From assembly GCF_000497575.1 (NCBI RefSeq), contig NZ_APJI01000007.1, positions 1 through 64,000 of the forward strand: a stretch of 64,000 nt of DNA. The letters are read 5' to 3'. The stretch comes from Afipia sp. OHSU_II-C1. GTDB lineage: Bacteria > Pseudomonadota > Alphaproteobacteria > Rhizobiales > Xanthobacteraceae. The position numbers and the translations under genes are program-made. Positions 6,181 to 10,067 of this stretch are shown here, piece by piece (within the stretch, counting starts at the first letter, position 1; each line of letters begins with the position of its first letter). Under the pieces are notes generated by a model. That model was not told the origin of the DNA and searched no databases. It saw nothing but the letters and a program-made list of their open reading frames with translations.

Positions 6181-7138
6181 GATGGTCCTCTGAATGGTCC
6201 TCTTGGAGAGTTCCGGCAATTGCGCCGTATGGGTGATACGCGGATAAGACCCCGCCGTTACGGCAAAATTCCACACAAAAACGTGAGCATGAACCCTGGT
6301 GCGCGCCCGCGCGTTGTTCCCTGCATGCGCCGGGTGACAACCGGCCGCAACGGGGACGATGGACGCAGCTTCTTTTGCCGGTTTCTGGCTGCGGCACCAA
6401 CGCATCGGTACGCGTTTTGTCTAACCCGTTCCCGGCGCGTGCGCCTGTCTCCGATTCGATTTTCAAACAGCCACTTTCAAACACGCACGCGCGATTGCTC
6501 TCGCGCGGCGATCGCGCGATTGGCTTCGTCATGGGCCCCTCGAAAGATGAGGGGAGATGGAGCGCCGCGAGGCGCAGGGTTGAGGTCTCGCTGCCGTCTC
6601 CGCTCGCGGGCGAAGGACGGAAGCGCATCGCCTTGCGGCGCTCCACCAACGCCGGCTGATCCGCCCGCCGTAGGGGCCGCGATCCTCCGGCGCGCGAAAG
6701 CCGCGCAAGCGAGGCTTTCGCTGCGGCGTGCCGGGCCGAGGATCCGTGCAGGTCGGGAGTGCGAAGCGGGGAGGGGTGCATGCGCGCGGACGGCGAAACC
6801 AATCCGCGTCAGCCAGTCCAGGGCCGGCCTTGGCCGGTCCTTAAGACCCGGCGGTTTGACACCGCCGTTCTCCCTCGCAAGCCCGACGGCGCAAGCGCCA
6901 CCGGCCGCATTCAGGCGTTGCTTTCGCGCCGCCGTTTGCACTCCGTCGCCAGCCGCAAGCGGCATCTCCCCGTAGTGGGAGCGGACGGTCCACCTCGGCC
7001 GCCCGAGAGCGTGTGTGCGTCACACGCGCGCGGTCGCCGCGCTTCATTCCACTTCAAGAACGCCTCCGGAAGCGCCCCTCACGAATGAAGTGATAGGAAT
7101 ATAAGCCTATACAAGCTGAATGTCAATGGATCCGACAA
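6181..7138. other. Long GC-rich intergenic region, no supportable gene
   Basis: About 960 bp between msrA and the low-GC island. Both strands carry overlapping arginine/alanine-rich frames without ribosome-binding sites or family resemblance. Short palindromic motifs occur (for example GGCCGGCCTTGGCCGGTCC near 6830). GC falls sharply after about 7085, marking the left edge of the island. It may hold remnants of decayed genes or repeats. Confidence 0.45.
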
Positions 7139-8020
7139 TCATTTGAATTGATCCGGATAAGCTGAAATGAGTCGATCGGTGTCATTACCATCAATTATTC
7201 CATACCAGATCGGATTGTTTTCTTTCAGGGATTTGATTTCAGCAAATGTCTGCATTTGCTGCAAAACACTTTCAGCGATTTGTCCATGATATTGGATGAT
7301 AAAGACGCTTGCAGCAGTCTCGAACAATCGTTGAATTTGGTCGCCATTTTTACCGAGTTTTGCAGGAGTCAAAACTCCCGTTGTGGCGGGGCCCTTAAAC
7401 GCAAATGCTATTCTTCGACGTGCCCCAGCCACAGTAGCATTGGAGAACAAGTCATTTTTTTCCCCGCCCCAATCTTTAAAAACGCCACGGTCTTTTAGAA
7501 TTTTTGCGAATCCCGTTTTGATCTTTTTTTCAGGTAATAATTTTTTGGGACCCGATTTGATCCTTTTAATCTTTGAAAAATTCGCAATGTCGTCACATAC
7601 GATAGGACGAGCCTGAACCTTTAGGCCTTGCGCAACTCTAATGGTTCTGACGGTGTGTGTAACGCGGGGCGTCTGTTTGGTCGGGTACTTGGTGTTTAGA
7701 ACTGTGCTGGATTTTTTCAGGCCGCTTAGAATTTTGGCTTTATTGGTTTTATAGACCGCTACTTTTTTGTACGCGATTTTCCCGCGAACTTTGACAGTCT
7801 CAACGATCTGCTCATCGGACAATTTTCCGCCATCTTGCAACACCGCAACTTGAGTTAGGCCAGTCTTGGCCATGATTTCTGCGACAGTTTTGGATTGTTT
7901 GCTGCCTTTGTAAATCTCCATAAAAACTTTTATCCGCCGCGGCGAGCGTTTCAATACGCTGATCGCGTGTAAGATGTGTTCGTTTTTATTTGCTCTGTAG
8001 TCGCTGACAGGAGCGACCAT
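7139..8020 (-). CDS. Uncharacterised 293-aa protein with N-terminal winged-helix-like region; possible restriction-endonuclease-like C-terminal fold
   Basis: I do not recognise a named family. Residues about 15-90 are basic and look like a winged helix (IKVFMEIYKGSKQSKTVAEI, then a TGLTQVAVLQDGGKL turn). Residues 90-160 are lysine-rich. The C-terminal 130 residues read as an alternating strand/helix domain: RRIAFAFKG (strand with terminal lysine), KNGDQIQRLF (helix), SVFIIQYHG (strand), a long helix, then IWYGIIDGNDTDRL (strand). That order and the QIQ helix recall PD-(D/E)xK nucleases, but the expected ExK glutamate is an alanine here, so the comparison is tentative. The start ATG overlaps the stop of the preceding HTH-like gene (TGATG), implying coupled expression. 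It is the only large protein of the island and so the likely effector. Confidence 0.75.
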   Translation of the reverse strand: MVAPVSDYRANKNEHILHAISVLKRSPRRIKVFMEIYKGSKQSKTVAEIMAKTGLTQVAVLQDGGKLSDEQIVETVKVRGKIAYKKVAVYKTNKAKILSGLKKSSTVLNTKYPTKQTPRVTHTVRTIRVAQGLKVQARPIVCDDIANFSKIKRIKSGPKKLLPEKKIKTGFAKILKDRGVFKDWGGEKNDLFSNATVAGARRRIAFAFKGPATTGVLTPAKLGKNGDQIQRLFETAASVFIIQYHGQIAESVLQQMQTFAEIKSLKENNPIWYGIIDGNDTDRLISAYPDQFK

Positions 8021-8211
8021 CAGATGTTACCCTTCTGAAGAAGCTTTCTTATTTTCTTGGTCGGCATACTTCTACGCACAGCGCTTGAATCAACATTCAA
8101 GGCCATGCCGATTTCTTCGGAGGTGGTATCCAGCTTTAGAAGGAGCAGCATTAGTAGTCGCTTGATATCCTCAAGCTGCTTAGTCGATGAATCAGACATG
8201 CTTGTCCCCAT
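8020..8211 (-). CDS. Small HTH-like protein, first gene of the minus-strand arm
   Basis: A 63-residue protein: a leucine-rich helix (LEDIKRLLMLLLLKL) followed by a helix-turn-helix-like segment (TTSEEIGMALNVDSSAVRRSM) and a basic tail. The layout matches the four small proteins encoded on the other side of the divergent spacer, although here the link between the two parts is shorter. The leucine-rich helix probably mediates pairing and the second part DNA binding; both are inferences. Its TGA overlaps the ATG of the 293-aa gene, so the two are made together, as in a regulator/effector or antitoxin/toxin pair. Confidence 0.7.
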   Translation of the reverse strand: MGTSMSDSSTKQLEDIKRLLMLLLLKLDTTSEEIGMALNVDSSAVRRSMPTKKIRKLLQKGNI

Positions 8212-8350
8212 GAACTATCTTGAAATGCGGATTTATAAAACTATATTGACGTGGTTGTAATTTACAACCTTGATATAACAATCTGATTTAAAAGAGAAAA
8301 TATCAATATAAAGCTAAACATATGCGAATCTAATTCCTTGGGGGCTTCGT
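8212..8350. promoter_or_regulatory. Divergent promoter region of the low-GC island with a 17-bp perfect palindrome
   Basis: This 139-bp AT-rich spacer separates the two arms. GGTTGTAA T TTACAACC at 8253-8269 is a perfect inverted repeat with 8-bp arms. On the minus strand, TTGTAA inside the palindrome and TATAGT 16 bases further resemble -35 and -10 boxes, so a protein bound to the palindrome would block that promoter. AT-rich -10-like sequences (TATAAC at 8274-8279, TATAAA at 8307-8312) could serve the plus-strand arm. The small HTH-like proteins are natural candidates to bind here. Confidence 0.5.
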
Positions 8351-8566
8351 ATGTCTGATGCGCAGGAAACCACTAATCAGCTCTTGAGAGTCCTGATTGG
8401 GCTTACGCTGCTAAATGGTGAGAAGAAAACGCTTCGTCAGCAAGTCGAGTTGCTAAGTGATTTTGGGCTGAAACCAAACGAGATCGCGAAAATTGTTTGT
8501 CGCACGGGCACCTATGTGAACAAGGAGCTTGCGGGAATTCGAAAATCAAAAAAGAGGAAATCTTAA
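8351..8566 (+). CDS. Small HTH-like protein, plus-strand arm gene 1
   Basis: A 71-residue protein. An N-terminal hydrophobic helix (TNQLLRVLIGLTLL) is followed by a linker, a helix (LRQQVELLSDFGL) and a sigma-70 region 4-like or transposase-like HTH (KPNEIAKIVCRTGTYVNKEL), ending in a lysine/arginine tail. The layout GL-xxxEIAxI-xxxxxxV recurs in the other plus-strand members. The ATG is preceded by a G-rich stretch (GGGGG). Its TAA overlaps the next ATG (TAATG). It probably binds DNA; target and partner are unknown. Confidence 0.7.
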   Translation: MSDAQETTNQLLRVLIGLTLLNGEKKTLRQQVELLSDFGLKPNEIAKIVCRTGTYVNKELAGIRKSKKRKS

Positions 8567-8760
8567 TGCCAAAGACGCAGTTGAGTGCCGAGGCATTGCT
8601 GCATGAGATACTTGCGGTCCAGCAGAATCAATTAATTGTGTCGCTTGCTTTAGCTGGCTTAACCAAACATCAGATTCGCGAGATTGTGGGAGTTGATATG
8701 AACCGCGTCACGAAGACGCTCAAGTTTTTCAAGAAAACTCCAAGAGAGAAAAATGTCTAA
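8566..8760 (+). CDS. Small HTH-like protein, plus-strand arm gene 2
   Basis: A 64-residue protein starting at the ATG that shares one base with the previous stop; GAGGAAA lies upstream inside the previous gene. Pattern: helix (AEALLHEILAVQQNQLIVSL), then AGLTKHQIREIVGVDMNRVTKTL as the HTH, then a basic tail. The IVG-VDMNRV recognition-helix region differs from its neighbours, suggesting different DNA or protein targets. The last 8 bases overlap the next gene. Confidence 0.7.
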   Translation: MPKTQLSAEALLHEILAVQQNQLIVSLALAGLTKHQIREIVGVDMNRVTKTLKFFKKTPREKNV

Positions 8761-8953
8761 AAGCGCAGATGAAATTACGCATGAAAAGCTCGATTCAATA
8801 ATTGCATTGCTGCAATATCTCGTTGCTTTGGAACTGCAAAAGAGCGGCGTTCCGCAATCAACTATCGGTACGCATCTTCACGTAGCGAAATCGCGAGTTG
8901 TCGACATGCTTCGTGGAGTGGGAAAGCGAAATAGAAATGACGAAAAAAGCTGA
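8753..8953 (+). CDS. Small HTH-like protein, plus-strand arm gene 3
   Basis: A 66-residue protein. Helix HEKLDSIIALLQYLVALEL, then SGVPQSTIGTHLHVAKSRVVDML as the HTH, then the basic GKRNRNDEK tail. It starts 8 bases before the stop of the preceding gene and its own end overlaps the next start by 17 bases. Such overlaps usually mean co-translation of proteins needed in fixed proportion. I do not know a function. Confidence 0.7.
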   Translation: MSKSADEITHEKLDSIIALLQYLVALELQKSGVPQSTIGTHLHVAKSRVVDMLRGVGKRNRNDEKS

Positions 8954-9182
8954 CGTTGAGGCTGTTGAGACTATCTCACGAAAGCTGAACGTCCTTATAT
9001 CGCTCTCGCTTCGACAGCTAAGTGGAGACTCCGAATTCGGAGCAAAATCTCGAAAAAAGAATGTGGGCGATGCAGCGAGATATTTGTCCAGTATGGGATT
9101 AGAGCCCAAGGATATCGCGGAAATCCTTGGAGCTCCAATATCGAGCATTAGAACGCTGCTTACACCTAGCAGAAGGCGGTAG
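8937..9182 (+). CDS. Small HTH-like protein, plus-strand arm gene 4
   Basis: An 81-residue protein, the longest of the set. Helix (ISRKLNVLISLSLRQL), a charged linker with KSRKKN, then a second helix (GDAARYLSSMGLEP) and the HTH (KDIAEILGAPISSIRTLL) with a basic tail. It resembles gene 1 of the arm most closely (GL-xPxxIAxI). The ATG at 8937 lies inside the preceding gene; an upstream in-frame ATG at 8898 would add 13 residues and overlap more. It ends 12 bp before the convergent galU stop. Confidence 0.7.
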   Translation: MTKKADVEAVETISRKLNVLISLSLRQLSGDSEFGAKSRKKNVGDAARYLSSMGLEPKDIAEILGAPISSIRTLLTPSRRR

Positions 9183-9194
9183 CATCAATATAGG

Positions 9195-10067
9195 CTACAC
9201 GTACTTCTTCATCTCGCTCAACAGATCGCTGCGCAGGTCCTCGCGGTCCATCGCGTACGCAATGTTCGCGGCGAGGAAGCCCGACTTCGAGCCGCAGTCG
9301 TAGCTCTTGCCCTTGAACTTGAAGCCATAGAACGGCTGTGATTTGGCGAGGCCCAGCATCGCGTCGGTGAGCTGGATTTCGCCGCCCGCGCCGCGCTCCT
9401 GCGTCTCCAGCACCTTGAAGATTTCCGGCTGCAGGATGTAGCGCCCGGTGATCGAGAGATTTGACGGCGCGACTTCCTTCTTCGGCTTCTCGACCATGCC
9501 GTCGAGCTCGAACATATCGCCTTTGGGCTTGCCGACGCCGACCACGCCATACATGTGGACCTGATCCATCGGCACTTCTTCCACCGCGATGATGTTGGCC
9601 TTGTCCGCGCCCGCCGCGTTGGCGGCGTCGATCATCTGCTTCAGGCCGCTCGGCTTGTTCTTCACCAGCACGTCCGGCAGCAGCACGGCGAACGGCTCAT
9701 TGCCGATGATGTCGCGCGCGCACCACACGGCATGGCCAAGACCAAGCGGCGCCTGCTGGCGGGTGAACGAGGTCGCGCCCGCTGGCGGCTGGTCGCGCTC
9801 GAGGATGTCCATTTCCTTCAGCTTGTTGCGCTCCTTCAGCGTGTCCTCAAGCTCATAGGGCCGGTCGAAATGATCCTCGATCACGCCCTTGTTGCGCCCG
9901 GTGACGAACACGAGGTGTTCGATGCCGGCTTCCAGCGCCTCGTCCACCACATGCTGGATCAGCGGGCGGTCCACCACGGTGAGCATTTCCTTGGGCATGG
10001 CCTTGGTGGCCGGGAGGAAACGGGTGCCAAGACCGGCGACGGGAAACACGGCTTTGCGGATTTTCAT
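9195..10067 (-). CDS. galU: UTP--glucose-1-phosphate uridylyltransferase
   Basis: A 290-residue cytosolic enzyme that makes UDP-glucose from UTP and glucose-1-phosphate, for exopolysaccharide, lipopolysaccharide and glucan synthesis. The N-terminal nucleotide-binding signature (GLGTRFLPATKAMPKEM), VTGRNKGVIEDHFD, LGLGHAV, VLLPDVLV, YGVVGV and GKSYDCGSKSGFL are all characteristic, and length is normal. It converges with the last gene of the low-GC island 12 bp away, with no terminator between, so read-through antisense to its 3' end is possible. Confidence 0.96.
   Translation of the reverse strand: MKIRKAVFPVAGLGTRFLPATKAMPKEMLTVVDRPLIQHVVDEALEAGIEHLVFVTGRNKGVIEDHFDRPYELEDTLKERNKLKEMDILERDQPPAGATSFTRQQAPLGLGHAVWCARDIIGNEPFAVLLPDVLVKNKPSGLKQMIDAANAAGADKANIIAVEEVPMDQVHMYGVVGVGKPKGDMFELDGMVEKPKKEVAPSNLSITGRYILQPEIFKVLETQERGAGGEIQLTDAMLGLAKSQPFYGFKFKGKSYDCGSKSGFLAANIAYAMDREDLRSDLLSEMKKYV

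Follow-up and report, generated by a model that had tools for sequence, protein, structure and literature searches.

The window, the whole 64,000-nucleotide stretch of DNA analysed here, carries beside galU an island of six genes that we read, with a probability of roughly 0.55, as a modular immune-type system in which small helix-turn-helix (HTH) subunits sense DNA and an adaptor switches on an exchangeable toxic effector. That these genes form a real, conserved gene system is a near certainty. The system is compact and rare, yet spread widely. One scan of a genome collection returned at least 41 relatives in many bacterial and archaeal phyla, and 35 of the 41 carry, among neighbouring ORFs called by a greedy script rather than a gene finder, one to six tightly packed small HTH genes of the window's kinds next to the gene for a larger, main protein. 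The linkage across unrelated genomes that the first-pass annotation had set as a check is upheld, as is its picture of several HTH proteins, all different, arrayed beside a single larger one; a fixed set of six genes is not, since the HTH genes vary in number and type. Two results go beyond that annotation: the larger protein is composed of a winged-HTH adaptor and a nuclease-like domain, and the array follows the adaptor.

Six overlapping genes beside galU

The system occupies a low-GC insert of about 2.07 kb which adjoins galU and holds six overlapping ORFs, laid out as follows.

7130..9196, no strand: low-GC insert containing the whole system (left edge putative), with a repeated element bearing a leftward promoter-like site on its left and the galU stop codon on its right
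7139..8020, minus strand: 293-aa main protein (P0001), winged-HTH adaptor plus PD-(D/E)xK nuclease-like domain
8020..8199, minus strand: small HTH protein of type T0, 59 aa (P0002); 63 aa with the upstream start at 8211
8253..8269, no strand: 17-bp palindrome in the divergent spacer, operator-like
8351..8566, plus strand: small HTH protein of type T5 (a), 71 aa
8566..8760, plus strand: small HTH protein of type T4, 64 aa
8753..8953, plus strand: small HTH protein of type T1, 66 aa
8937..9182, plus strand: small HTH protein of type T5 (b), 81 aa

Much of the earlier description of this island was confirmed. Six ORFs are present and overlap within each arm (by 1 nt at 8020, 1 nt at 8566, 8 nt and 17 nt), and the arms diverge from a palindromic spacer. 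The small proteins had been given as 63-81 residues, of which the upper end is right, whereas the smallest has 59 residues unless translation begins at 8211. GC content is indeed far below that of the neighbours, at 0.45 and 0.43 in the island's two kilobases versus 0.67 and 0.60 in the flanks, although the 33% originally quoted came from a small sample. The spacer palindrome, GGTTGTAATTTACAACC, has arms of a length seen in 2.8% of 500 plain shuffles of the spacer, and allowing up to two mismatches no other copy was found in the 5.08-Mb genome; it is probably an operator for self-regulation. The island proteins share 47-64% amino-acid identity with their counterparts in L017 (in L023 for P0002), and the codon differences are concentrated at the third position (0.66-0.72, against 0.19-0.31 at the second), so that the genes look real; chance ORFs are ruled out by this codon-position pattern together with the conservation.

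Array, adaptor and exchangeable effector

The scan for relatives used two exact peptide patterns, and because both were taken from the nuclease half of the main protein the figure of 41 is a lower bound and adaptors carrying other effectors lay beyond its reach; among the 41, L002, L011 and L037 are one locus, as are L003, L012 and L050. The array is absent from six, namely L041, which is full-length, L048, L051 and L053, which are truncated, and L056 and L057, which have no adaptor. L041 is the one full-length main protein without an array gene (L041:5890-6903, Bradyrhizobium australiense; adaptor and nuclease domain, neighbours judged by eye).

When the small ORFs around the 41 loci and in the window were clustered by BLAST, 114 sequences joined into a single connected group, from which nine types, T0-T8, were drawn at one clustering setting; the winged-HTH groups T9 and T10 were added by hand. 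Type profiles label 139 small HTH genes in the 35 loci and the window, and a single such gene is found in only 2 of these 36 loci. Outside the window, 128 of 134 share the orientation of the main gene, and four of the six exceptions make up the divergent arm of L017, the window's closest relative, whose four divergent genes match the window's four in identical order; L017 has no counterpart of P0002. Packing is tight whichever start is chosen, with 50 overlaps and 100 gaps of at most 30 bp among 120 intergenic gaps when first-ATG starts are used, and 60 and 107 with the longest starts. The types also tend to have a fixed order, the majority order being kept in 112 of 141 type pairs, a value reached by 1 of 2000 within-locus shuffles in a test that treats related loci as independent, and the window's T5-T4-T5 order recurs in L032 from the Acidobacteria. 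At L028:53-1716 a transposase-like ORF (by eye) separates the main gene from a truncated HTH remnant, as would result from disruption of the array, and at L019:4320-5526 two adjacent nucleotidyltransferase-like genes (AbiEii-like by eye) immediately precede the array.

The small proteins had been called HTH-like from their layout, and this was confirmed by profile matches at E of 0.01 or below, 25 of 50 proteins matching Sigma70_r4_2 and 23 matching HTH_23. Each combines a leucine-rich N-terminal helix with a sigma-4-like HTH. The likeness to ECF/sigma-70 proteins is thus one of region 4, and unlike those proteins the array members have only the HTH and the leucine-rich helix; sigma region 2 does not occur among the matches listed (25 of the 35 matched families, for 50 proteins), where sigma matches are to region 4 only.

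Profile searches of whole genomes, in which a limited set of initial candidates is scored for each genome, show how closely these families keep to the system. Profile A5 (type T1) gave 42 matches in 23 of 32 whole genomes with loci; 37 fall at the system locus, and the five elsewhere are weak, with E values between 5.9e-6 and 9.1e-4 and ORFs 135-364 aa long. Both A5 matches in the window's genome are inside the island. At E 1e-7 the T1 profile matched only the window's own genome among 398 of the phylum, and T0 matched four of 297 genomes of the order: the window's, two with known loci and a new one, G218. When 387 genomes of the order were searched with the adaptor profile, 11 matches came back. 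The strong ones are four, belonging to the window, to two nuclease loci and to the CHAT locus described below; the other seven are weak (E 4.5e-4 to 9.3e-4). Two of the weak matches were rejected as relatives, being by eye ROK-type and ArsR-type regulators.

In the main protein, residues ~12-115 form the N-terminal winged-HTH adaptor and residues ~140-293 the C-terminal PD-(D/E)xK nuclease-like domain. As searches with the whole predicted model were dominated by the winged HTH, the C-terminal domain was folded alone; its model has the alpha-beta core of the PD-(D/E)xK superfamily, its best matches including nuclease regions of FokI and Avs4, and this fold evidence comes from one method. Across 35 sequences D183-W-G-G-E187, D190, K209-G210, L217, G223 and G226-D-Q228 are invariant, so that E187, D190, K209 and D227 are all retained, and A207 stands at the place expected for a second acid. 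A search of P0001 against PDB sequences at E 1 found no match. Elsewhere, in bacterial genomes, viral contigs and plasmids of actinobacteria, the DWGGE...GKNGDQ domain is found without adaptor or array, attached to N-terminal regions of other, undescribed kinds.

The new genome, G218, revealed a locus (L088) in which a T10 winged HTH, a T6 gene and three T0 genes are followed by an adaptor fused to a different effector. The first ~126 residues of this protein are the adaptor (36% identity to a Chelativorans protein, E 2e-23; 98.9% probability against set A2, which leaves out L041, L046, L048, L051, L053, L056 and L057, the L046 main gene being a shorter open frame of 255 aa). Its C-terminus is a CHAT (caspase-like) domain, above the Pfam cut-off at E 2.4e-11, whose histidine and cysteine motifs, HFSGHAGG and NACDT, we take by eye to be intact. 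Conversely, all 13 loci in which the nuclease domain lacks an adaptor (L008-L010, L013-L016, L056, L057 and L100-L103) are without array genes. From this fusion and these 13 loci we conclude that the array goes with the adaptor and that the effector is exchangeable. A Swt1-like HEPN gene is added in five of the 41 loci. Those of L023, L035, L043 and L046 form one BLAST cluster, and those of L035 and L045 match PDC-M34B (1.2e-22 and 2.5e-15); the Pfam HEPN_Swt1 cut-off is passed by L043 only, with L035 and L046 just below it and no match at 0.01 for L023 and L045.

The nuclease branch invites another explanation, which we consider unlikely: a split, modular FokI-like restriction enzyme whose small HTH proteins jointly read a long site and position the nuclease, the long site being absent from the host and a methylase thereby unnecessary. 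FokI carries its recognition subdomains in one chain. The FokI cleavage domain is among the best fold matches, one winged HTH is fused to the nuclease-like domain, and the several HTH subunits are of distinct types in a preferred order, all of which speaks for it. Set beside FokI itself, the island has its additional HTH modules on small proteins of their own, whose number and type vary from locus to locus, and the position two residues ahead of the lysine, where an acid is usual, has none. Against such an enzyme, no cognate DNA methyltransferase recurs beside the loci, each MTase_II (Type II) model matching at most 2 of 115 near proteins; a Type I-like methylase adjoins L036. The HEPN add-ons also speak against it, and L088 pairs a window-type array and adaptor with a protease-type fold from which DNA cutting is not expected. 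Because of this CHAT variant, a purely restriction-like role for all members is disfavoured, although the nuclease branch alone may be a split enzyme of this kind.

A toxin-antitoxin-like module, with the main protein as toxin and the small HTH proteins as antitoxins and repressors of the divergent promoter, seems to us rather improbable. It would suit small overlapping genes ahead of a larger effector-like gene, the operator-like palindrome and effectors of the HEPN and CHAT kinds, yet the antitoxin-toxin gene pair of Type II systems is absent: where one antitoxin per toxin is usual, the arrays here put one to six HTH genes of several types, in a preferred order, with one main gene. The main protein moreover has a winged HTH of its own, and the 13 nuclease loci that lack the adaptor have no small HTH genes.

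Spread across phyla and a variable insertion site

When 35 main proteins were placed in a maximum-likelihood tree, 20 label changes were needed for 15 groups, between a minimum of 14 and a shuffled mean of 26.3, and none of 200 shuffles was as low as 20. Two or more changes are required by starred branches in each of four groups, Planctomycetota, Acidobacteriota, Patescibacteria and Nitrospirota; the window is sister to L017 (100/96). There has therefore been inheritance within groups as well as transfer from one to another.

Within the genus, the position next to galU serves as a variable insertion site. Four same-genus genomes align with the window up to ~7103-7109 and resume at 9197/9202, with different inserts between. 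Since the window and all four genomes have a GTCAA box at a similar distance beyond the left anchor, we infer that the true left edge lies near 7130. The site was compared in eight same-genus genomes, none of whose stretches holds an array gene; with L075 left out, their contents fall into several classes. L071:4514-7096 encodes a TIR and TPR protein (PADLOC TIR-NLR, E 4e-10), L077:3017-5473 an MT-A70 methyltransferase with a DndB/DpdB-like protein, and L070:5166-7155 and L074:6319-7026 genes without a family match; L072, L073 and L076 have no insert, with roughly 50-600 bp from the sRNA-side anchor to galU. The sRNA is an Rfam match to the Rhizobiales Atu_At1 (window 6325-6436, plus strand, 90.6 bits), and ~135 bp at its site are kept at 93-96% identity in four of the eight stretches. 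Between it and the insert, window 6940-7130 contains an element of ~145-170 bp that is matched 12 times in the genome; identity is 70-75% for the 11 matches other than this one, and four of the matches begin no more than 160 bases from where a contig starts. At the insert edge a promoter-like TTGACA-17-TATATT points leftward, its GTCAA part being kept beside four different inserts in other genomes; the element may be a multi-copy transcribed one.

Around the other loci, near neighbours (115 proteins) match 107 PADLOC models at 1e-10 and far ones (148 proteins) 18, after ORFs below 130 aa, two near ORFs of at least 1200 aa and the six array-less loci had been dropped; since several models overlap and HEPN genes count among the near neighbours, the excess is a trend only. 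Three alphaproteobacterial loci, L050, L052 and L053, adjoin lepA (named by eye), which may mark a second preferred site or shared descent.

With the main protein as query, plasmids and phages yielded nuclease-domain relatives only (2 and 1 records), and viral_contigs no relative of P0001. Two adaptor queries and two array queries in plasmids found nothing, a further array query gave only a 45-residue match at E 6e-3, and one array query in phages found nothing. Phage or plasmid core genes are accordingly out. A transcriptional or mobile-element control region, its HTH proteins regulating the element and the main protein serving as a recombination or maintenance nuclease, is the least probable reading: the scatter across phyla, an insertion site shared with other inserts and serine-recombinase-like genes beside L035 and L039 (product name by eye) agree with it, but genes for a recombinase, for replication or for transfer do not recur beside the loci, the plasmid and phage searches brought back those few records, and the CHAT swap speaks against it.

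A proposed mechanism and its place among known systems

We return to the immune-type reading. A sensor-adaptor-effector design is suggested by three things together: small HTH subunits bearing leucine-rich helices, the winged-HTH adaptor, and a toxic domain that can be exchanged. Several small HTH subunits would be made from one tightly packed array, their leucine-rich N-terminal helices serving assembly and their sigma-4-like HTHs contacting nucleic acid, and together with the main protein's winged-HTH adaptor they would form a multi-subunit complex on DNA. The target would probably be invader DNA, or a DNA state arising from infection. Its binding would bring the C-terminal effector domains together and switch them on, and the effector (PD-(D/E)xK nuclease-like in the window, CHAT in one relative, with a Swt1-like HEPN protein added in five) would then damage invader DNA or the host cell.

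We lean fairly clearly towards an immune role, because the effector swap, the HEPN add-on and the variable site with its defence-type genes are defence-like features; to that extent the defence reading offered by the first-pass annotation stands. For DNA sensing by the array we would give even odds. More tentatively, these loci could represent a new immune class in which ordered, type-conserved HTH subunits read invader DNA combinatorially and an adaptor relays the signal to an exchangeable effector; such a class might, with the same reserve, be described as a protein-only modular DNA-sensing machine of Bacteria and Archaea with nuclease, caspase-like protease and HEPN effectors. If true, nucleic-acid sensing could be built from arrays of small HTH proteins that many phyla of Bacteria and Archaea have in common, the exchange of effectors resembling that in the innate immunity of animals and bacteria, and these small, separable DNA-binding modules could set specificity by their combination. 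Even if its role is not defence, the gene set is a coherent, transferable system undescribed in the searched libraries.

Avs/STAND, CBASS and TIR-NLR are modular-effector immune systems. Here, by contrast, the sensing part is the small HTH array with its winged-HTH adaptor, and no NTPase or nucleotide cyclase appears among the six proteins in their profile matches. The PADLOC candidate PDC-M34 is touched through its component PDC-M34B, which the L035 and L045 HEPN genes, and three near neighbours scanned (at 1e-10), match; the HEPN gene is optional here, however, and no PDC-M34 model matches the main or HTH proteins tested. The domains are known, and the system is absent from the searched libraries. 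The island had been thought undescribed, and profile-database searches of each protein agree, with no significant match to a characterised family: against Pfam, PADLOC, NCBIfam and PHROGs nothing was convincing, and weak single-protein matches were left unused. No system of this form is named in the literature searched, which included few subscription papers, and passages of PMC12839542 and PMC8195603 describe no such array. With PADLOC 2.0.0 the six window proteins drew only Csa3 (P0001, E 0.0022, the lowest value for these six in the four libraries; weak and partial), and the main proteins of L035 and L045 no model. The eight small proteins of these two loci drew CasR (0.0016), Cas11e (4.8e-5, L035:2722-2955) and weaker others, all weak and partial, and against PDB sequences the small-HTH profile gave short matches to designed repeat proteins and BurrH.
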